Assembly: GCF_000020525.1 (NCBI RefSeq)
Contig: NC_011026.1
Span: 1,470,001-1,534,000 of the forward strand
DNA: 64,000 bases
From: Chloroherpeton thalassium ATCC 35110
GTDB taxonomy: Bacteria > Bacteroidota > Chlorobiia > Chlorobiales > Chloroherpetonaceae
Reading direction: 5' to 3'
Every line of letters begins with the position of its first letter. The first letter of the stretch is position 1. This document shows positions 10,282-26,569 of this stretch, piece by piece. The notes below the pieces were generated by a model. That model did not search any database, was not told the DNA's origin, and worked only from the letters and a program-made list of their open reading frames with translations. The translations under genes and the position numbers were made by a program.

Positions 10282-12195
10282 ATGGGTAAGATTATTGGTA
10301 TAGACTTGGGGACAACCAACTCCTGTGTTGCGGTTATGCAGGGAAAAGATCCTGTGGTTATTGCAAATGCGGAAGGATATCGCACAACCCCATCAATGGT
10401 GGCATTTACAAAATCGGGTGAGCGTTTGGTTGGTCATGCGGCAAAGCGCCAAGCAATTACCAACGCAACCAATACGATTTTTTCAATTAAGCGTTTTATG
10501 GGGCGCACCCAGGACGAAGTGCCGGAAGAAACCAAAATGGTGCCTTACCAAATCGTGTCCGAAGGCAATCAGGCGCGTGTGAAAATCGGCGACAAAACGC
10601 ATTCTCCGCAGGAAATTTCGGCGATGATTTTGCAAAAAATGAAGGAAACGGCTGAAGATTTTCTCGGGGAAAAAGTCACCGAAGCGGTCATTACCGTTCC
10701 GGCTTATTTTAACGATGCGCAGCGTCAGGCAACCAAAGATGCTGGTCAAATTGCCGGCCTTGAAGTCAAGCGCATCATCAACGAACCGACAGCAGCCGCG
10801 CTTGCTTATGGCTTGGACAAAAAGCAAAGCAATGAAAAAGTTGCCGTGTTTGACCTTGGCGGCGGTACGTTTGATATTTCCGTTCTCGAGCTTGGCGATG
10901 GCGTTTTTGAAGTTCGCTCAACCGATGGCGATACGCACCTCGGCGGTGACAACTTCGACCAGATTCTCATCGACTTCCTTGCCGACGAGTTCAAAAAGCA
11001 AGAGATGATCGATCTCAGAAAAGATCCGATGGCCTTGCAGCGTTTGAAAGAAGCCGCTGAAAAAGCGAAAATTGAACTTTCTTCCAGCGCCGCAACCGAA
11101 GTCAACTTGCCGTTTATCACGGCAACGCAAGATGGTCCAAAGCATTTGGTTGTTAATATCACGCGTGCGAAATTTGAAGGCCTTTGTGCAAGTTTGTTTG
11201 ACCGAATTCTTGAGCCTTGCCGTCGCGCGGTGAAAAACGCCAAATTAGATGTAAAAGAGATTGACGAAGTCGTATTGGTGGGTGGTTCAACGCGTATTCC
11301 AAAAGTTCAGCAGCTCGTAAAAGAATTTTTCGGCAAAGAGCCAAACCGTTCGGTCAACCCTGACGAAGTGGTTGCAGTTGGTGCTGCTATTCAAGGCGGC
11401 GTTTTGAAAGGCGATGTGACCGATGTGTTGTTGCTCGATGTCACGCCGCTTTCGCTTGGTATTGAAACGCTTGGCGGTGTGATGACGAAGCTTATCGAAG
11501 CCAACACCACCATTCCAACCAAGAAGCAAGAAACTTTCTCGACCGCAGCCGATAATCAGACTTCGGTAGAAATTCACATCTTGCAAGGTGAACGGCCAAT
11601 GTCCACTGATAATAAAACGCTGGGTCGTTTCCATTTGGATGGTATTCCACCAGCACCGCGTGGCGTTCCTCAAATTGAGGTTGCATTTGACATTGACGCC
11701 AACGGTATTTTGCATGTGTCGGCTAAGGACAAAGCGACGGGCAAAGAACAGAGCGTTCGCATCGAGGCAAGTGGCAAGCTTTCTGAAACTGAAATTGAAA
11801 AAATGAAGAAAGATGCCAGCTCTCATGCTGATGAAGACAAGAAGAAAAAAGAAGAAGTTGATACGAAAAACACAGCCGATGCGCTCATTTTCTCAACGGA
11901 GAAACAGATTAATGAGATTGGGGACAAGCTTCCAGCCGAAAATCTGTCTAAAATTCAAGCTGCGTTAGATCGCTTGAAGGAGGCGCACAAAACCGGCAAT
12001 ACGGCAACTATCAAGCCGGCGATGGATGCGCTCACTAAAGAGTGGAACGAAGCGGCTTCGAAAATGTACGGCACAGAAGCGGGGGCTCCAGGTGCAGCTG
12101 GCGCTGCCGGTGCTGCGGGTCAAGGCCAAAGCGCTTCTTCTGGTAAAGATGACGAAGTGAAGAATGCCGACTTTGAAGTGGTCGATGATAAGTAA
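10282..12195 (+). CDS. dnaK: chaperone protein DnaK (Hsp70)
   Basis: A 637-residue Hsp70, full length for the family. The N-terminal ATPase domain starts with [14 protein letters not shown] and contains the phosphate motifs [15 protein letters not shown] and [14 protein letters not shown]. The substrate-binding domain follows from about residue 390, with the linker [15 protein letters not shown]. The C-terminus ends in a Gly-Ala-rich stretch and [13 protein letters not shown], typical of bacterial DnaK. It folds and protects cytosolic proteins together with DnaJ and GrpE, neither of which is in this window. AAAGGAAGG provides a ribosome-binding site before the start. The leader contains a terminator-like hairpin, and a clear terminator follows the gene, so it is transcribed alone. 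Confidence 0.98.
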
Positions 12196-15619: not shown

Positions 15620-16555
15620 TTAAAACGCCATTTTGAGCAGCGAAAAACAGATGGCGAAAAGCAGCATCGTTCGAATATTGATTCCCGCGACTTTTTTAAT
15701 TTCATCAAACTGAATGTCGCGCTCGGTTTCGCCGATGTAGGGTTTTTCTACTAGCTCGCCGTGATACCGATTCGGGCCGCCAAATCGACAATTTAAAATC
15801 CCGGCAAGCGCGGCTTCGGGATAGCCTGAATTTGGGCTTTTGTGTTGCTTGCCATATTTCAGCGCAAATCGAATCGCTCGCGGTGAAAGGCTTGCGAGCG
15901 CCATGAGGAGCGCCGTGAGGCGCGCTGGCAAAAAGTTCAGCACATCGTCGAGCCGTGCGGCAAATTTTCCGAATTGTTCGTAGCGCTCGCTTCGGTAGCC
16001 GATCATCGAATCCAGCGTGTTCGTCATTTTATAGGCCATGATGCCCGGCACGCCGAAAAGCGCGTAATAAAAAAGCGGCGCAATCACGCCGTCGCTTAAA
16101 TTTTCCGACATGCTTTCAAAAACCGCAATCTTGATTTGATTCGCGCTTAGCTCGCCGGTTTCTCGCCCGACGATTCGGCTAAGTTGCGTGCGCCCTGCCT
16201 CAAGCCCGCGCTCACGAAGGGCGGCGAAAATCCCCTTTCCCTCGCGGATGAGGCCTTCGCCCGCGACGCCGTAAAACACAAACACCGCATGAAAACAGAG
16301 CGTCGCCCAAACGGAAATTTCCGCCGAAAGCCGTTCAAGCGCGAAAAAAAAGCCGAACGTGCCTGCAATCAAAACCGCCGAAAAAAGCATTCCTTTGAGA
16401 AAACGGCCTGCGCCGGCGTTCAAACGCTTTTCGCCCCGCGCAATCAAGTTGCCGAAAAAAACAATTGGATGGGGCAACCAAGTCGGGTCGGCCAAAAGAA
16501 AATCCAGCGCAAGGCCGAGCCAAAGCGCCGTAATTACGAGCAAGTTTGAATCCAT
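15620..16555 (-). CDS. cbiB: adenosylcobinamide-phosphate synthase CbiB/CobD(Pseudomonas nomenclature)
   Basis: A 311-residue integral membrane protein of the CbiB family. It attaches (R)-1-amino-2-propanol phosphate to adenosylcobyric acid. The N-terminus LALDFLLADPTWLPHPIVFFG and the segment YKMTNTLDSMIGYRSERYEQFG are strong family signatures. PNSGYPEAALAGIL lies near the C-terminus. The ATG at 16555 overlaps the end of the upstream threonine-phosphate decarboxylase-like gene by 22 bases, indicating translational coupling. Together the two genes make and attach the aminopropanol linker of vitamin B12. Confidence 0.92.
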   Translation of the reverse strand: MDSNLLVITALWLGLALDFLLADPTWLPHPIVFFGNLIARGEKRLNAGAGRFLKGMLFSAVLIAGTFGFFFALERLSAEISVWATLCFHAVFVFYGVAGEGLIREGKGIFAALRERGLEAGRTQLSRIVGRETGELSANQIKIAVFESMSENLSDGVIAPLFYYALFGVPGIMAYKMTNTLDSMIGYRSERYEQFGKFAARLDDVLNFLPARLTALLMALASLSPRAIRFALKYGKQHKSPNSGYPEAALAGILNCRFGGPNRYHGELVEKPYIGETERDIQFDEIKKVAGINIRTMLLFAICFSLLKMAF

Positions 16556-17574
16556 GCTTGAAGTGCGTTGATGAGCCGAGCGTTTTCGGCGTCGGAGAGC
16601 GTGGCGAGGCGAAAATGCCCCGCGCGGCAACCGCGAAAGTTCGAGGCGTCGCGCACGAGCAGGCCGTGCGTCTCGGCTAAATGTTTTTTCAAATCGGCGG
16701 CGCGTCCGATTTTTAGTTCACATAAAAAAAAGTGAACCGCGCTTTCCGAAACCGAAAGTCCCGGAACGGTTTGCAACGCGGCCTTGAACGCGGCGGCTCG
16801 CCGAAGCAACCCGGCCACATCGGGCAGCGTTTCCGGCAAGCGCTCGATTAAATATTTTCCGGCTTCAATCGCAAGCGCATTGACCGTCCAAGGCTGTTTG
16901 TGCGACGAAAGCGCGGCAATTTGCTCGGCGGACGCGAGCGCATAACCCAAGCGAAGGCCGGGAACGGCGAAAATTTTCGTCATCGAACGCAGCAGCGTCA
17001 AGTTCGGATAACGCCTGAGCAGCGGCGCGAGGCTGGCGTTCGGGTCGGCGGTAAATTCCGTAAAGGCTTCGTCCGTCACGAAATGCGTATTCGGATTTGC
17101 CTCAAACAGCCTTGCAAGTTTTTCGCGCGGATGTAGCTGTCCCGTTGGGTTGTTAGGATTACAGATAAAGCAAAGCTTTGTTTCCGGCGGCAAAGAGAAG
17201 GTTTCGTTTGAAAACGCCTCGTGCGAGGCAAATTGCAAGTCGTGCGAATGGAGGCGGCAGGCGTCCTCATATTCGGAAAATGCGGGCGTAAAAATCAGCG
17301 TGCGAGCATTTCGGAATCGCTGCGCAATGAGATAAATCGCTTCAACCGCGCCGTTCGTGACCAGCACTTGCTCTGGCGCGACGCCGTGATGTTCGGCAAG
17401 CAACGCCTGCAACGATTCGCCCGTGACTTCGGGATAGCGATGAACGGCATCCCATTTCTCAAACAGATGCGCCTTCAGGCCTTCGGGCGAGCCGCCTGCC
17501 CAAACATTGCTGCTGAAATTTGCCGAAATCGGATGCGTAAATTGATAGGCATCGTCGCCGTGTCCGTGTAACAT
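16534..17574 (-). CDS. cobD: threonine-phosphate decarboxylase-like PLP enzyme of corrinoid synthesis
   Basis: A 346-residue class I/II aminotransferase-fold protein. The start MLHGHGDDAYQF resembles CobD/CobC (Gly-His-Gly near the N-terminus). The PLP-binding lysine lies in SMTKIFAVPGLRLGYA, and FICNPNNPTGQL is the usual cofactor-phosphate region. CobD decarboxylates L-threonine phosphate to (R)-1-amino-2-propanol phosphate. HisC, histidinol-phosphate aminotransferase, is the main alternative, but the downstream cbiB, overlapping by 22 bases, makes the corrinoid function much more likely. The upstream region holds two inverted-repeat elements and no recognisable cobalamin riboswitch. Confidence 0.87.
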   Translation of the reverse strand: MLHGHGDDAYQFTHPISANFSSNVWAGGSPEGLKAHLFEKWDAVHRYPEVTGESLQALLAEHHGVAPEQVLVTNGAVEAIYLIAQRFRNARTLIFTPAFSEYEDACRLHSHDLQFASHEAFSNETFSLPPETKLCFICNPNNPTGQLHPREKLARLFEANPNTHFVTDEAFTEFTADPNASLAPLLRRYPNLTLLRSMTKIFAVPGLRLGYALASAEQIAALSSHKQPWTVNALAIEAGKYLIERLPETLPDVAGLLRRAAAFKAALQTVPGLSVSESAVHFFLCELKIGRAADLKKHLAETHGLLVRDASNFRGCRAGHFRLATLSDAENARLINALQAWIQTCS

Positions 17575-17653
17575 GTCTGTTAGGCTATTTGGAAAAAACC
17601 GTTCGGATGTTATTTCTAAGAGAATTATTTATGCGAAAAAAACACGCTTTCGT

Positions 17654-17722
17654 GTCGGTCTGAGCGAAGACGAAGACCGCTTGACTTTAAAGACGTCGCC
17701 CATCGTCTCCGCTCAGTGCGAC
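17654..17722. repeat. imperfect inverted repeat, 69 bases
   Basis: The left arm GTCGGTCTGAGCGAAGACGA and the reverse complement of the right arm GTCGCACTGAGCGGAGACGA match at 17 of 20 positions. The core CTGAGCG resembles the CTGAG core of the second repeat 84 bases away, which suggests one small palindromic family. Confidence 0.7.
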
Positions 17723-17805
17723 ATAAAAAATTGTATCGGTAGAGAGGGTGAAAGGCGCTTAAAATACAGGTTGTGTTTCCGCTACCGACGACAAATAAAA
17801 ATCGA

Positions 17806-17886
17806 TGTCATTCTGAGGCATCTTAGCCGAAGAATCCAGCGAACCGGATGAATGGATGCTTCGCCAGAAGAATGCTCAGCATGACA
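17806..17886. repeat. imperfect inverted repeat, 81 bases
   Basis: TGTCATTCTGAG (17806-17817) is repeated inverted, with one mismatch, at 17875-17886. The inner sequence also has partial dyad character around GAAGAATCC and GGATGCTTC. It looks like the dispersed GTCATTCTGAG-type palindromes known from several bacterial genomes, which have no coding content and may be mobilised as miniature elements. Confidence 0.75.
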
Positions 17887-18056
17887 AGTTGCTGTTTCAA
17901 CTCCTGAATCAGGACAACACGTATAAGTAATATTTTGCTATAAAAAGCGTCGGGAATATAACAAAGTTACCAGCACTCTTCGATAGCTCGGAAAAGCGGC
18001 AGGGGTGAAAAAAACAAGCGACTTGCAATTTCGGCAAACAAGCGGAAGGAAAAAGG

Positions 18057-18473
18057 TTACTTTTTCACGGTGACCGGCTCGCCCTTGATGCCCGCGTAAA
18101 AAACGAGAATTTCCGCCGGTTCGTCGCTTTCGTTTTTTCCGTAATGCCATTTATTGACGACTTCCACAATGGCGTCGCCGGCTTTCATGTGCAAAATTTC
18201 CTCGTTTTCCGTCACCACCGTCAATTTTCCCTTGAGCAGCACGCCGGCGTTGATAATCGGATGCCGATGCACTTCCAATTTCATTTTGGGCGGAATGGTG
18301 ATTTTCAGAATGGTGACTTCCGGCTGTCCGGTCGCATAAGTCGGCAGCGTGTTCCCGTCCCAGCTTTCGGTCGTTTTGGCCAAAACTTCAACACCGACGG
18401 TTTCCACCTGCTGCGCCAAGCCTGCACAGGTTGCCGATAGCAAGAAAACGAGTCCTAACAAAATTTTTTTCAT
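18057..18473 (-). CDS. exported cupin-domain protein
   Basis: A 138-residue single-domain cupin with a signal peptide (MKKILLGLVFLLSATCAGLA, cleavage near residue 20). The cupin barrel includes KLEVHRHPIINAGVLLKGKLTV, giving the HxH and the conserved glycine, then GDAIVEVVNKWHYGKN with a further His. These positions could bind a metal. Exported small cupins of this type are seldom characterised and may be sugar- or metal-binding or have quercetinase-like folds. It lies 72 bases after cobQ on the same strand, so co-transcription is possible, but a link to corrinoids is not shown. Confidence 0.8.
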   Translation of the reverse strand: MKKILLGLVFLLSATCAGLAQQVETVGVEVLAKTTESWDGNTLPTYATGQPEVTILKITIPPKMKLEVHRHPIINAGVLLKGKLTVVTENEEILHMKAGDAIVEVVNKWHYGKNESDEPAEILVFYAGIKGEPVTVKK

Positions 18474-18545
18474 GAGCGGATCTTTTTAAAGTTCATCAAG
18501 CGGTTTCCTTATCCGCGAAGACGCTTCTCAATGCAAAATACTTTC

Positions 18546-20048
18546 TTACGCCGGTTTCAATGTGCTATAAATGTAAGCCATGTCGAGGTGCTCGCGCATC
18601 ATAGCGGCAAGTTTATCATACTCGGCGTTGTTTTGTTCGCGCAGGCTCATTTTGGGCGCAGCAGTGGGTGTTTCATCCAAAACTGAAAGATGCGGACGAA
18701 GCACGGCGTCAATCACGATGGGATTATCTAAAATGCCGTGCAAATAGGTTCCCCAGCAAGTTTCGGAAAGGTAGCAGCCGTCGGTTTCGCCATTTTCAAA
18801 ACGAGCAACCGGCAAGGCCGAAGCATTTATCGGCTCAGTTTTCCCCATGTGAATTTCATAGCCATAGCAAATTTCGCTGTGATCGCGAAAATGAAATGCG
18901 CGTTGCAGCGTCGTTTTTTCTGGTTGAAGTTCTGTTTCCATAGGAAGCAAGCCTAACCCTGAAAGTTCGCCCAGCTTGCATTCGACAGCGTAAGGATCTG
19001 AAAGGCGCGTTCCCATGATTTGATAGCCGCCGCAAATGCCGATTACGGTTGTTCCTTTGCGATGCAATTTTCGAATCGCAACATCCAGGCTGCGCGATTT
19101 GAGTTCGGCCAAATCCTCAATCGTGTTTTTGCTGCCAGGAATGAGAATGATTTGGGCTTTTTCGAGTTCATCCGCGTCAAGCGTGTAATAAAGTCGGACG
19201 CGCGGATCGTGTTCCAAAGCGCGGAAATCTGTGTAATTGGCAATGCGCGAAAGCTTCAGCACGGCAATATTAATTTTGCCAGGTTGGTGCGAGGTATGCC
19301 TTTTTTGCAGCGCGACGGAATCCTCTTCATCGATTTGTAAGTCGCGAATGTATGGAAGCACGCCCACAACCGGAACTTGAGTCAAATCTTCAAGGATTTT
19401 TCGTCCTTCATGAAAAAGACGCGAGTCGCCGCGAAATTTATTGATGATGATGCCTTTCATCAGCTTGCGCTCTTCTTCGGGCAAAAGCGCAATCGTTCCA
19501 TAAACCGAGCCAAAAACACCGCCGCGCTCAATGTCGGAAACGAGATAAGTCGCAGCGCCAGCGTGGAGCGCCATGCGCATGTTGGTAATATCGCGCTGCT
19601 TGATGTTGAGTTCAGAAATGCTTCCCGCGCCTTCCATCACAATTGGATTGTAGCGTGCGCGTAGCCGATCGAATGCCAGGCAAACTTCGCGAAAAAGCTC
19701 GTGCCGGTCATCGGCGTTATAATATTCATAAGCTGAGCGCGTGCCGATAGGTTTTCCATTCAGCACGATTTGCGAGCCGGTTTCGCCGGTGGGTTTTAGC
19801 AAAACTGGATTCATATCGGTGTGGCAGGCAATGCCAGCGGCTTCGGCTTGTGTGGCTTGGGCGCGTCCGATTTCAAATCCTTCAGGCGTGGCGTAACTAT
19901 TGAGCGACATGTTTTGCGCTTTGAACGGTGCGGGTGAAAAGCCATCTTGCTTGAAAATGCGGCAAAGCCCTGCAACGAGCAAGCTTTTTCCCGCGTCGGA
20001 AGCTGTCCCGACGACCATCATCGGTTTTAGCGGCTGAATTTTTGACAT
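18546..20048 (-). CDS. cobQ: cobyric acid synthase
   Basis: A 500-residue amidotransferase that amidates adenosylcobyrinic acid a,c-diamide at four side chains. The N-terminal dethiobiotin-synthetase-like ATP domain is VVGTASDAGKSLLVAGL then KAQNMSLNSYATPEG. The class I glutaminase domain has the nucleophile Cys in VIGICGGYQIMGTRL and the His in TYLHGILDN. Length is normal. The minus-strand order is an AAA ATPase/DUF4276 pair, then cobQ, then the cupin. The other corrinoid genes in the window, cobD and cbiB, are about 1 kb further downstream, separated by the palindrome-bearing region. Confidence 0.95.
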   Translation of the reverse strand: MSKIQPLKPMMVVGTASDAGKSLLVAGLCRIFKQDGFSPAPFKAQNMSLNSYATPEGFEIGRAQATQAEAAGIACHTDMNPVLLKPTGETGSQIVLNGKPIGTRSAYEYYNADDRHELFREVCLAFDRLRARYNPIVMEGAGSISELNIKQRDITNMRMALHAGAATYLVSDIERGGVFGSVYGTIALLPEEERKLMKGIIINKFRGDSRLFHEGRKILEDLTQVPVVGVLPYIRDLQIDEEDSVALQKRHTSHQPGKINIAVLKLSRIANYTDFRALEHDPRVRLYYTLDADELEKAQIILIPGSKNTIEDLAELKSRSLDVAIRKLHRKGTTVIGICGGYQIMGTRLSDPYAVECKLGELSGLGLLPMETELQPEKTTLQRAFHFRDHSEICYGYEIHMGKTEPINASALPVARFENGETDGCYLSETCWGTYLHGILDNPIVIDAVLRPHLSVLDETPTAAPKMSLREQNNAEYDKLAAMMREHLDMAYIYSTLKPA

Positions 20049-20108
20049 AATAAAATCATGTAAAGGCGATTAAATGCAAAGTTAATAAACTCAGGAAGAG
20101 AATCTCGT

Positions 20109-20684
20109 TCAGAGCAGCAGCGCTTGAATCGCGTTTATAAAATGCGTGAAACTTGTTGAGCGGTTATTTTCAATGTTAAGAAATGGGCTAATGGCTTCAG
20201 CGGTTTTTCCCTTGGCTAGATGCACCCTGCCTGAATATTCTGGAATAATTTTCATCAATTCTTGACTGGGTTTAATAATCATGTCAGGATTTTCGTACTT
20301 CCTTTTATTTCTGTGCGGGTTTGCTGAAAAACGCGGAAACGCTTTTTCTATCGCGATGAAATCGCCGATGAACCATGCTTCCAATTCTTTACATACAATT
20401 CTGATTTTGAACGGCGAATGGCATTTTCCGTTTATTTTCTCCAGAATATCCCGCTTTAAATCTTGGCAATCTGTGTTGTCTTGATCAAGCGCAACAACAA
20501 TTCGCGCGCCCTCTACTTTGCTCAAACTTGGCAATACGGTCGGCAACGCTTGCAGCAAGTCTCCCTTGCCTTGATGAGGCATTGTGTAATACCAGTAACC
20601 ATGTGGGGTAATGAGTTTTTCCGCAATCGCAGTTATTACCGGCAGAATGGACGGTTCTTCAACCAGAAAGAAAATACCTTTCAT
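20109..20684 (-). CDS. DUF4276-family TOPRIM-like protein
   Basis: A 191-residue protein resembling DUF4276. Acidic residues in a TOPRIM-like order are visible: Glu9-Glu10 after the first strand (FFLVEEPS), then Asp67-x-Asp69 in VVALDQDN, then CKELEAWFIGD. TOPRIM domains coordinate Mg2+ for DNA or RNA cleavage or primase-type chemistry. Its ATG directly abuts the TAG stop of the upstream AAA ATPase, so the two are translationally coupled and probably act as a complex. ATPase plus TOPRIM pairs such as OLD, Gabija and PARIS are anti-phage systems; a nuclease role here is inference. Confidence 0.75.
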   Translation of the reverse strand: MKGIFFLVEEPSILPVITAIAEKLITPHGYWYYTMPHQGKGDLLQALPTVLPSLSKVEGARIVVALDQDNTDCQDLKRDILEKINGKCHSPFKIRIVCKELEAWFIGDFIAIEKAFPRFSANPHRNKRKYENPDMIIKPSQELMKIIPEYSGRVHLAKGKTAEAISPFLNIENNRSTSFTHFINAIQALLL

Positions 20685-21887
20685 CTACTTCAAATTTGCG
20701 CCTTTTATGTAATGATTTCGCCAGAGCCAGCCAAGTTTGTTTCCGTCCGAATGAAGGTTTCGTGTGAGTTCGTCTTCCGATGCCGCTTTGATTTGAGAAA
20801 AACCGCCGTCTTTTACCAAGAAAAAGAGTTCATCAATATCGAGCGCATTGACAAAATCGGGCGAATGCGTAGAAACAAAAACTTGCCCGCCTCTTTCCGC
20901 ATATTCCCTGATTTCTTCCGCCAACGAAACAAGCAAATCTGGGTGAAGAAAGTTTTCCGGCTCTTCTATGCAAAGCAATGGATGCGGATCGGGATCGTAA
21001 AGCAAAATCATGTAGGCAAACATTTTTATCGTGCCGTCGGAGACGAACTTTCCGATAAACGGGTCGACAAAATTTTCATCTTGAAAGCGCAAAACCACTT
21101 TACCTTCAATGGAATCAACCGCTTCAACTTTTGAAATGCCAGGAATGCGTTGAGGAAGTTTATGAAGAATCTGATCAAAAATATCGCGATGGTACTCATA
21201 AATGTATTTCGTGACTTGCGCCAGATTCTCGCCGGTAGCGTTCAAATGTTCGTCAAGTCCGGTGTCCGAAACCCTTCGTGCCGCATCGATGCTAAAGCTC
21301 GAGATGTACCATTTTTCGAGCATTTTGCGAAATTCCGAAACCGCGCGAAACTGCTCAAATTGCCCAAGCCCCTTGACGGCCAGAATGTCAGGGCTGGAAA
21401 GAACTTTATTTTCTCTTTCATCTGTGGCGCCTTCTTCGCCGTAAGCTTGTTCATTAACGATGGCGCTGCCTGCACCATCTTGAAAATCCAGAAAATGCCA
21501 AGGTTTTCCTTTCCTCCCGCGTCGATAGCGAAGAATTTCTCTTCTGACAATTGCTTTTCCTCGTTCAAAACCAATTCGCACTTGATAGGTGATCACCGGA
21601 TTGAAATCATTTTCAAACGCGTTAGGGTTTCTAAATTTCAGTTCAAAAAAAAGTTCATCTTTTTCAGGATCACATCCTCGTGCCAAAACTTCTTTAACAC
21701 CGCCGCGTCGGTTGACGGCAATCGTCACATTGCTTTGCAAGGCGTCACTTAAAAAACCAAAAACGTCAAACAGCGTGCTTTTTCCGCTTCCGTTCGGTCC
21801 CAAGAAAACGCAAAGATTTGATAGGCCGCGAATCTCCGTATCTTTAAAGACTTTATAGTTTTTTACGTGAAGCTGCTCAATTTGCAT
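20685..21887 (-). CDS. ABC/SMC-like AAA ATPase (COG4637-type) of the DUF4276 pair
   Basis: A 400-residue RecF/SMC-like ATPase. Walker A is FLGPNGSGKSTLFDVFGFL near residue 28. Walker B lies in PLLCIEEPENFLHPDL near residue 325, and the switch His is in VFVSTHSPDFVNAL. The signature-like segment FVSDGTIKMFAYMILL precedes Walker B. There is no room for a long coiled coil. The partner TOPRIM-like gene starts at the next base after its stop codon. Such two-gene sets are found in accessory regions; here the set lies between cobQ and rsmB without visible mobility genes. Confidence 0.82.
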   Translation of the reverse strand: MQIEQLHVKNYKVFKDTEIRGLSNLCVFLGPNGSGKSTLFDVFGFLSDALQSNVTIAVNRRGGVKEVLARGCDPEKDELFFELKFRNPNAFENDFNPVITYQVRIGFERGKAIVRREILRYRRGRKGKPWHFLDFQDGAGSAIVNEQAYGEEGATDERENKVLSSPDILAVKGLGQFEQFRAVSEFRKMLEKWYISSFSIDAARRVSDTGLDEHLNATGENLAQVTKYIYEYHRDIFDQILHKLPQRIPGISKVEAVDSIEGKVVLRFQDENFVDPFIGKFVSDGTIKMFAYMILLYDPDPHPLLCIEEPENFLHPDLLVSLAEEIREYAERGGQVFVSTHSPDFVNALDIDELFFLVKDGGFSQIKAASEDELTRNLHSDGNKLGWLWRNHYIKGANLK

Positions 21888-22064
21888 GGCGGTATTTTTG
21901 ACAAGTGAAAAGTATTTAAACTTTCGCCGCTGTGATATGCGTGCGAAAGTTTAAGATTACACAAATCTCCTATCGAATGAAATATATAGTGCGGATAAAA
22001 AACACAGCTGAGTCGCAATGCCGCTAACCACCGCGATTTATATTTATTTAGCGCGCTAAAGGAG

Positions 22065-23396
22065 TCACGCTTTCCTAACCAGCCGCGCGGAAAATGCGCC
22101 ATCGAAGCCGTTTTTGCCAGGTAAAAGCGAAATGTAGCCCTTATCATGAACAACCTCGTGAAACTCATCCGGTAAAATCTCAATTGCCGATTGCAATTGC
22201 CATTCAGGGTGAGCGTTCAGAAATTTTTCAATCAACACTTGATTTTCTTCTGGCTCAATCGAGCAGGTCGAATAAACAATTGCGGCATCAGGCTTAGCCA
22301 TTTTAGCGGCGTTCTCAAGCAATTGGTATTGCAAGTTTGAAAGCGCGGCCAGGTCCGCTTCGCTAAGCCGCCAGCGCAGCTCAGCGCGTCGTGAGAGCAC
22401 GCCCGTTCCGGTGCAAGGCGCGTCTAAGAGAATGGCGTCGAAGCCTTCTTCATGAGAGAAGCGCGTGGCGTCGTGCTTAATTGTGGAAATAATATCGATG
22501 CCGAGAGCGCTTGCAAGCCGGTCGATATCTTCAAGTTTATTGTCATACAAATCCAGCGAGGTGATTTGGCCAGCGTTTGCCATCATCTCAGCCAAATAAG
22601 TGGATTTCCCGCCAGGCGCGGCGCACATGTCCAGCACTTTTTGGCCAGGCTGCGGATTGAGCAAGCGGCAGGCCAGCGCTTGCGCTTCGCTTTGAACCGA
22701 AACTTCGCCGGTGCTTAAAAACGGCTCTAAATCAAAAAAGCGATCGGGTATGACGAAATCCGGCAAAATCGACTTGCGGAAAGTGACATTTTCTGCGAGC
22801 AGCTTTTGCTGAAATTTCTCCGGTGCGTTTTTTAAGCGGTTAATGCGGAAAGCAATTCGTGGGATAAGGTTGTTGGCTTCCATGATATTTTGTGCTTCCA
22901 GAAAGCCGTAAGTGCTGATCCAACGCTCAAGCAACCAGCGGGGATGCGAATACTTTAGGGCGATTTGATCGGCAAATGTGCCGCCTTGAATGGAAAAATC
23001 TACGGATTCTAAATTGTTGCTGATGTTTCTCAGCACGCCGTTTACCAAGTTTCCGAGAAACTGGCCTTTGAGTTTTTTGGCTAACTCAACGGATTCATTC
23101 ACAGCCGCCCAGCGAGGAACTTTGCTCAAAAATAAAAGCTGATAAGCCCCAATGCGCAAAATATTCTTGACATCGATGTCCATTTTATCGTAATCGTGCC
23201 GATAAAATTGTTTAATGACATGATCAATTTTCATTTTTTCGCGCAGCGTGCCATAAACAATTTGCATGGTAAAGGCTCGATCGACGGGCTCTAACGCAGT
23301 AATGCTAAAAAAATGATTCAGTGCAGTGTCCGACTTGGCATGATTTACTTCAACTTCCCTAAGTGCCTGTACTGCAATTTCTCTGGCTTTCATCAT
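22065..23396 (-). CDS. rsmB: 16S rRNA (cytosine-967-C5)-methyltransferase RsmB/Sun
   Basis: A 443-residue methyltransferase. The N-terminal NusB-like RNA-binding domain (about 1-140) precedes a Rossmann methyltransferase domain. SAM motif I is VLDMCAAPGGKSTYLAEMM, motif IV is LLDAPCTGTGVLSRRAELRW, and the catalytic Cys is in VYSTCSIEPEENQ. These match the Fmu/RsmB subfamily. Length equals that of the E. coli protein plus a few residues. The upstream region is AT-rich, and the divergent metY riboswitch begins about 410 bases away. Confidence 0.93.
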   Translation of the reverse strand: MMKAREIAVQALREVEVNHAKSDTALNHFFSITALEPVDRAFTMQIVYGTLREKMKIDHVIKQFYRHDYDKMDIDVKNILRIGAYQLLFLSKVPRWAAVNESVELAKKLKGQFLGNLVNGVLRNISNNLESVDFSIQGGTFADQIALKYSHPRWLLERWISTYGFLEAQNIMEANNLIPRIAFRINRLKNAPEKFQQKLLAENVTFRKSILPDFVIPDRFFDLEPFLSTGEVSVQSEAQALACRLLNPQPGQKVLDMCAAPGGKSTYLAEMMANAGQITSLDLYDNKLEDIDRLASALGIDIISTIKHDATRFSHEEGFDAILLDAPCTGTGVLSRRAELRWRLSEADLAALSNLQYQLLENAAKMAKPDAAIVYSTCSIEPEENQVLIEKFLNAHPEWQLQSAIEILPDEFHEVVHDKGYISLLPGKNGFDGAFSARLVRKA

Positions 23397-23805: not shown

Positions 23806-23922
23806 CTGTCATCAAGAAAGGTGGAGGGAAAGGCCCTGCGAAACCTTGGCAACCGCTCAAATAAAAATGTGAGTTGGTGCTAATTCCTACCCGGTGTAAA
23901 CTACCAGCGGGATAGATGACGG
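23806..23922 (+). ncRNA. SAM-I (S-box) riboswitch
   Basis: The aptamer core is clear: ATCAAGAAAGGTGGAGGGA, then GGCCCTGCGAAACC and GGCAACC, the hallmark of S-box leaders. The P1 helix is formed by CTGTCATC (23806-23813) and GATGACGG (23915-23922). It lies upstream of metY and metX. GGAAGAT at 23921-23927 can pair with CTCTTCC of the following terminator, giving the classical antiterminator. Binding of S-adenosylmethionine would therefore switch off transcription. Confidence 0.95.

Positions 23923-24089: not shown

Positions 24090-26569
<2,480 letters not shown>

Follow-up and report, generated by a model that had tools for sequence, protein, structure and literature searches.

The window analysed here, a stretch of 64,000 nucleotides that runs from base 1470001 to base 1534000 of a single contig (3,293,456 bases) of Chloroherpeton thalassium, contains two adjoining genes that encode an ABC ATPase and a DUF4276 protein (Table 1). 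On the minus strand, the gene order is rsmB, the ATPase gene, the DUF4276 gene and cobQ. Both open reading frames, their coordinates and the abutting TAG/ATG junction between them had been described in a sequence-only reading of this DNA, and all were confirmed from the sequence. Overlap or abutment is common among homologous pairs (the overlap is 4 nt in 30 of 74), and the junction is consistent with translational coupling of the ATPase and its partner. A search for promoters and terminators around the pair returned nothing beyond chance. Cobalamin genes, encoding CobD/CbiB, an aminotransferase and CobQ, form a cluster with a cupin gene, and the pair lies at the edge of this cluster.

Table 1. 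Features of the ATPase-DUF4276 locus, its surroundings and related loci. Positions are those of the window unless given as residues.
Feature	Position	Strand	Remarks
ATPase gene	20685-21887	minus	OLD/AAA_21-type ABC ATPase, 400 aa
DUF4276 gene	20109-20684	minus	191 aa; TOPRIM-like predicted nuclease
Stop/start junction TAG/ATG	20682-20687	minus	read from sequence; zero gap
rsmB	22065-23396	minus	adjoins ATPase side of pair
cobQ	18546-20048	minus	adjoins DUF4276 side of pair
Cobalamin and cupin gene cluster	15620-20048		pair lies at its edge
SAM riboswitch	23806-23922	plus	86.6 bits
Cys/Met-metabolism PLP enzyme gene	24114-25436		downstream of SAM riboswitch
ATPase Walker A, GPNGSGKST	residues 30-38
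ATPase signature-like motif, SDGT	residues 283-286
ATPase Walker B, with LCIEEPEN	residues 304-312 (LCIEEPEN at 305-312)
ATPase switch histidine	His341
ATPase C-terminal conserved G-x-LW	residues 386-389
Loci with adjoining aminoacyl-tRNA synthetase gene			L033, L034, L039, L053, L054, L056, L062, L064, L065, L069, L071, L083

The ATPase matched the Pfam families AAA_21 (5.2e-31) and AAA_15, and its best solved relatives by profile were an OLD nuclease, PtuA, retron effectors and AriA. The Walker A and Walker B motifs reported earlier are present. In 69 homologous pairs, these two motifs, the SDGT motif and the switch histidine were invariant or nearly so, which argues that the protein is probably an active ABC-type ATPase. 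The G-x-LW motif close to the C-terminus was invariant and may serve to dock the DUF4276 partner. The same genome encodes a second OLD-like ATPase, 26% identical to the first, at contig positions 2112971-2114026 (locus L121).

Loci carrying the ATPase were collected from many phyla (80 in total), and a DUF4276 gene lay directly 3' of the ATPase gene in 74 of the 79 that could be tested. The five exceptions comprised one masked sequence, one DUF4276 remnant with an internal deletion and three loci without DUF4276. A separate sample from another phylum gave the same arrangement in 50 of 53 loci, and in the sample from the first phylum every DUF4276 match on a long enough stretch had an adjoining ATPase. 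Across 69 pairs, the divergences of the two proteins were strongly correlated (Mantel r = 0.804; no permutation exceeded 0.142). The pairing of ATPase and DUF4276 is real and not a product of chance. At four loci (L089, at 11143-11337, and L043, L091 and L099), the ATPase was kept where DUF4276 was lost or survives as a deleted remnant; such loci suggest decay or a cost of the effector.

The product of the second gene belongs to Pfam PF14103 (8e-12), scoring 46.2 bits where the family cut-off is 30.2; Pfam still lists this family as a domain of unknown function. It had been proposed to carry TOPRIM-style acidic residues at Glu9/Glu10 and Asp67-x-Asp69. In the homologue alignment E9, D67 and D69 were invariant, upholding those positions, but E10 was conserved in only 94% of sequences, which singles out E9 as the likely catalytic glutamate. 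Invariance or near-invariance also held for S12, G39, K40, C73, K77, R95, E100, E102, D134, S176 and S178. The predicted catalytic residues are E9, D67 and D69, with E100/E102 as likely further members. An AlphaFold2 prediction from the single sequence was too poor for use (pLDDT 48); the model built from 70 homologous sequences reached a pLDDT of 96.1. In that model, strands 3-8, 31-36, 60-67 and 92-97 alternate with helices in β-α repeats, E9 lies at the end of strand 1, and D67 and D69 lie at the end of strand 3. A glutamate after strand 1 and a DxD after strand 3 of a β-α repeat are the arrangement of TOPRIM domains. Profile alignment with hhalign to the OLD-TOPRIM and DUF4435 families matched E9, in both cases, to the glutamate of the VEG motif and D67-x-D69 to the DxD. 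Against shuffled-column controls, these alignments scored z = 10.5 (OLD-TOPRIM) and z = 8.8 (DUF4435), compared with 1.4 for type IA topoisomerase, 1.9 for response regulator and 3.3 for P-loop control families, although the hhalign probabilities for OLD-TOPRIM and DUF4435 were low in absolute terms (11-37%).

With the DUF4276 model, Foldseek returned no match at E<=0.001 in PDB or BFVD, and no TOPRIM was recognised among the 50 PDB matches listed; sequence searches against the PDB gave nothing credible. The best structural match in BFVD was an RloB-like protein (probability 0.97, TM 0.48, E 0.017). The lack of a significant Foldseek match to any TOPRIM in these two databases, and the invariance of K40, C73, R95, E100, E102 and D134, which go beyond the minimal TOPRIM motif, would suit a protein that is TOPRIM-like in outline but has other chemistry, for example a nucleic-acid-binding or NTP-handling domain that is not a nuclease. 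We consider this improbable, given that the invariant glutamate and DxD are in register with two families of TOPRIM nucleases and are placed by the model at the strand ends, as in TOPRIM. Collectively, the strand-end placement and the catalytic register agree with the original description of the partner as TOPRIM-like, and a TOPRIM-like fold for DUF4276 is well supported by the alignments and the model but not proven. The analysis thereby provides evidence for DUF4276 as a TOPRIM-like effector with catalytic residues that can be tested.

Both proteins matched PADLOC models for HEC-01 over nearly their full length. The ATPase matched PDLC04144 at 4.7e-162 (residues 1-398 of 400), and the DUF4276 protein matched PDLC04202 (3.5e-37) and PDLC04143 (8e-36). 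HEC-01, which stands for Hma-embedded candidate 01 (PADLOC-DB 2.0 and a preprint by Payne et al.), has the same two-gene layout of adjacent, co-directional ATPase and DUF4276 genes, as found here on the minus strand with the TAG/ATG junction. The window copy differs in standing alone, embedded in neither an Hma nor a restriction-modification (R-M) locus. Since both proteins match its models, the pair is of an already catalogued candidate type: a plausible HEC-01-type antiviral system, but not a new kind of phage defence. HECs, or Hma-embedded candidates, come from a 2024 preprint, which is cited for the antiviral activity of several HECs, with HEC-06 named (PMC12988326). No functional paper on DUF4276 or HEC-01 came up in literature searches.

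The sequence-only reading had assigned the pair OLD/PARIS-like logic as an ATPase with a TOPRIM-like effector, and the protein families, the model and the profile register bear this out. It had further called the combination related to but distinct from PARIS, with DUF4276 in place of DUF4435. The distinction holds, in that no match to DUF4435/AriB was found in the protein or in the C. thalassium genome, so membership of PARIS was rejected; the implied novelty does not, because both proteins match HEC-01. PARIS also consists of a separate OLD-type ABC ATPase and a TOPRIM-like effector, and the effector profiles are in catalytic register, but the window effector has 191 aa against the 238 positions of the DUF4435 model. 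The ATPase matched the AriA model PDLC02980 at 5.6e-30, but with a score and span almost the same as those of the generic Pfam AAA_21. AAA ATPases with a small TOPRIM-related effector also make up AbiL (AbiLi/AbiLii) and RloA/RloB, known analogues in which the partner is an RloB/TOPRIM toxin (PMC10440598). The profile link between RloB and DUF4276 is weak (z = 5.7 and 2.4), and membership was rejected on finding no RloB (PF13707) match in the C. thalassium genome. Class 1 OLD and Gabija GajA share the OLD-type ABC ATPase and the TOPRIM catalytic pattern with the window pair, but carry them on one polypeptide, whereas here they are encoded by two genes. Class 1 OLD was rejected on this ground and on finding no PF20469 match in the genome; Gabija was rejected given the two separate reading frames and no GajB-like helicase beside the pair. 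In WonAB/PD-T4-4, too, a nuclease gene accompanies an OLD-ABC ATPase that acts as the sensor. The WonAB nuclease needs its ATPase for action (PMC12137116), and the effectors of these systems are restriction-fold or PD-(D/E)XK nucleases, not DUF4276 (PMC12137116, PMC10952713). Finally, MAD3 of MADS resembles the window ATPase (PADLOC 2.1e-26), but the score with its NCBIfam model, 109.2 bits, falls far short of the cut-off of 420, and no MADS genes were recognised nearby, and MADS was rejected. On the evidence, the pair would work like PARIS and AbiL/RloAB while being a member of neither.

The distribution of the pair is patchy. In its own phylum, 32 of 394 genomes were positive with the DUF4276 query, and in another phylum 38 of 398 were positive with the ATPase query, with up to three copies per genome. 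The nearest ATPases (65-67% identical) came from Runella, Symbiothrix (a termite-gut symbiont) and the gammaproteobacterium Thiomargarita, whereas those of most relatives from the same order were only 49-53% identical. The only genome of the same family retains the rsmB-metY junction, with the pair absent there. The GC content of the pair (window positions 20100-21900) is 0.42-0.45, compared with about 0.48-0.51 in most of the adjoining cobQ and rsmB. Patchiness, cross-phylum similarity, the junction without the pair and low GC together point to a horizontally acquired cassette. They also bear on a non-defence role, in which a RecF/Rad50-like ATPase and a TOPRIM nuclease would form a repair or surveillance pair serving the cell. 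Housekeeping neighbours in the window (rsmB and cobQ) and beside many homologues would fit such a role, as would an archaeal OLD-family ATPase reported to act in the cell cycle (PMC12796447). With the scattered occurrence and multiple copies, the similarity across phyla, carriage on plasmids and in a prophage, and the HEC-01 match set against it, we regard this role as highly improbable.

Some homologues lie in settings that clearly relate to defence or mobility. On a Meiothermus plasmid, the pair is enclosed by a type I R-M operon that also has DUF4433 and macro-domain genes; in Rahnella, it is among phage genes in a prophage; in Pseudomonas, it is on a conjugative plasmid; and on Synechocystis pSYSM, it is beside toxin-antitoxin and phosphorothioation (Dnd)-related genes. 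In a Chlorobi-rich sample, HsdM and HsdR headed the list of neighbour families, and neither was among the top families listed for a random-gene control. Near the pair in the 80-locus sample, 284 PADLOC families were counted, including HmaB and MTase_II, against 58 for 98 control genes, a difference that is only indicative because PADLOC models are redundant. Immediate neighbours in the separate sample from the other phylum were mostly housekeeping genes, as are those of the window copy, which stands alone between rsmB and cobQ. A uniform association with defence islands was rejected, as it was in the Chlorobi-rich sample alone that R-M families topped the neighbour list. The neighbourhood survey suggested by the sequence-only reading thus had a divided outcome: defence-island settings were found among Chlorobi relatives and on several plasmids, but many homologues sit alone among housekeeping genes. 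Defence islands are thus a frequent but not a constant setting of the cassette; with the R-M, plasmid and prophage settings in some genomes, homologues are not restricted to housekeeping contexts. The catalogued candidate system proves to be widespread and modular, and its copies outside defence islands, which are common, would be missed by surveys based on such islands.

Carriage on plasmids and the frequency of stand-alone cassettes are also what an addiction module would show, with DUF4276 as a TOPRIM toxin that the ATPase neutralises, the pair kept mainly through addiction and any phage defence secondary; AAA/TOPRIM_OLD pairs do act as toxin-antitoxin systems in neutralisation assays (PMC10440598). 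This reading is unlikely, in our judgment: the ATPase is conserved in all catalytic motifs, more than a passive antitoxin requires, some loci retain it after loss or truncation of DUF4276, and embedding in type I R-M loci suits defence better than addiction alone. The reading we prefer, with a probability of roughly 0.7, is that of a stand-alone, horizontally acquired HEC-01-type cassette whose ATPase would detect infection and license a TOPRIM nuclease of the two-metal type. The OLD-family ABC ATPase would most likely dimerise, bind DUF4276 and keep it in check; once the ATPase has sensed a cue of infection, DUF4276 would be freed or armed through ATP binding or hydrolysis. The effector, most likely a TOPRIM-fold two-metal nuclease, would cut nucleic acid and stop phage replication, probably through abortive infection, in which the infected cell is arrested or dies. 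The complex of the two proteins, its trigger, the nuclease activity and the antiphage effect are all predictions of this scheme. Licensing of the AriB tRNase by AriA in PARIS provides a precedent (PMC12409363). By analogy with AriB, the substrate may be RNA, for instance tRNA; by analogy with OLD/GajA, it may be DNA. The profile matches to DUF4435 (tRNase AriB) and OLD (DNase) are about equally strong and favour neither. If active, the pair would be a further variant of ATPase-gated TOPRIM immunity beside PARIS, AbiL and Gabija, and substrate choice could be compared across them.

Scanning of the neighbours also brought out an excess of aminoacyl-tRNA synthetase genes, noticed only after the scan. 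Such a gene directly adjoins the pair in 12 of the 80 loci, in about seven lineages, and the types represented are Arg, Ser, Met, Pro, Lys, Ile and Cys. None of these seven types was found beside the pair in two other samples (32 and 53 loci), and none was among the neighbour families listed for those samples. The adjoining LysRS was the only close LysRS match in the five genomes checked. Given the absence from the other samples and the LysRS being the sole close copy, the adjacency is a weak lead. On a long-shot reading, DUF4276 would be a TOPRIM ribonuclease that attacks tRNA or some other component of translation, and the pair would watch the translation apparatus; if true, the synthetase adjacency in the 80-locus sample would reflect function.

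Beyond rsmB, the window also contains a SAM riboswitch, located upstream of the gene for the Cys/Met-metabolism PLP enzyme, which is probably an O-acetylhomoserine sulfhydrylase.
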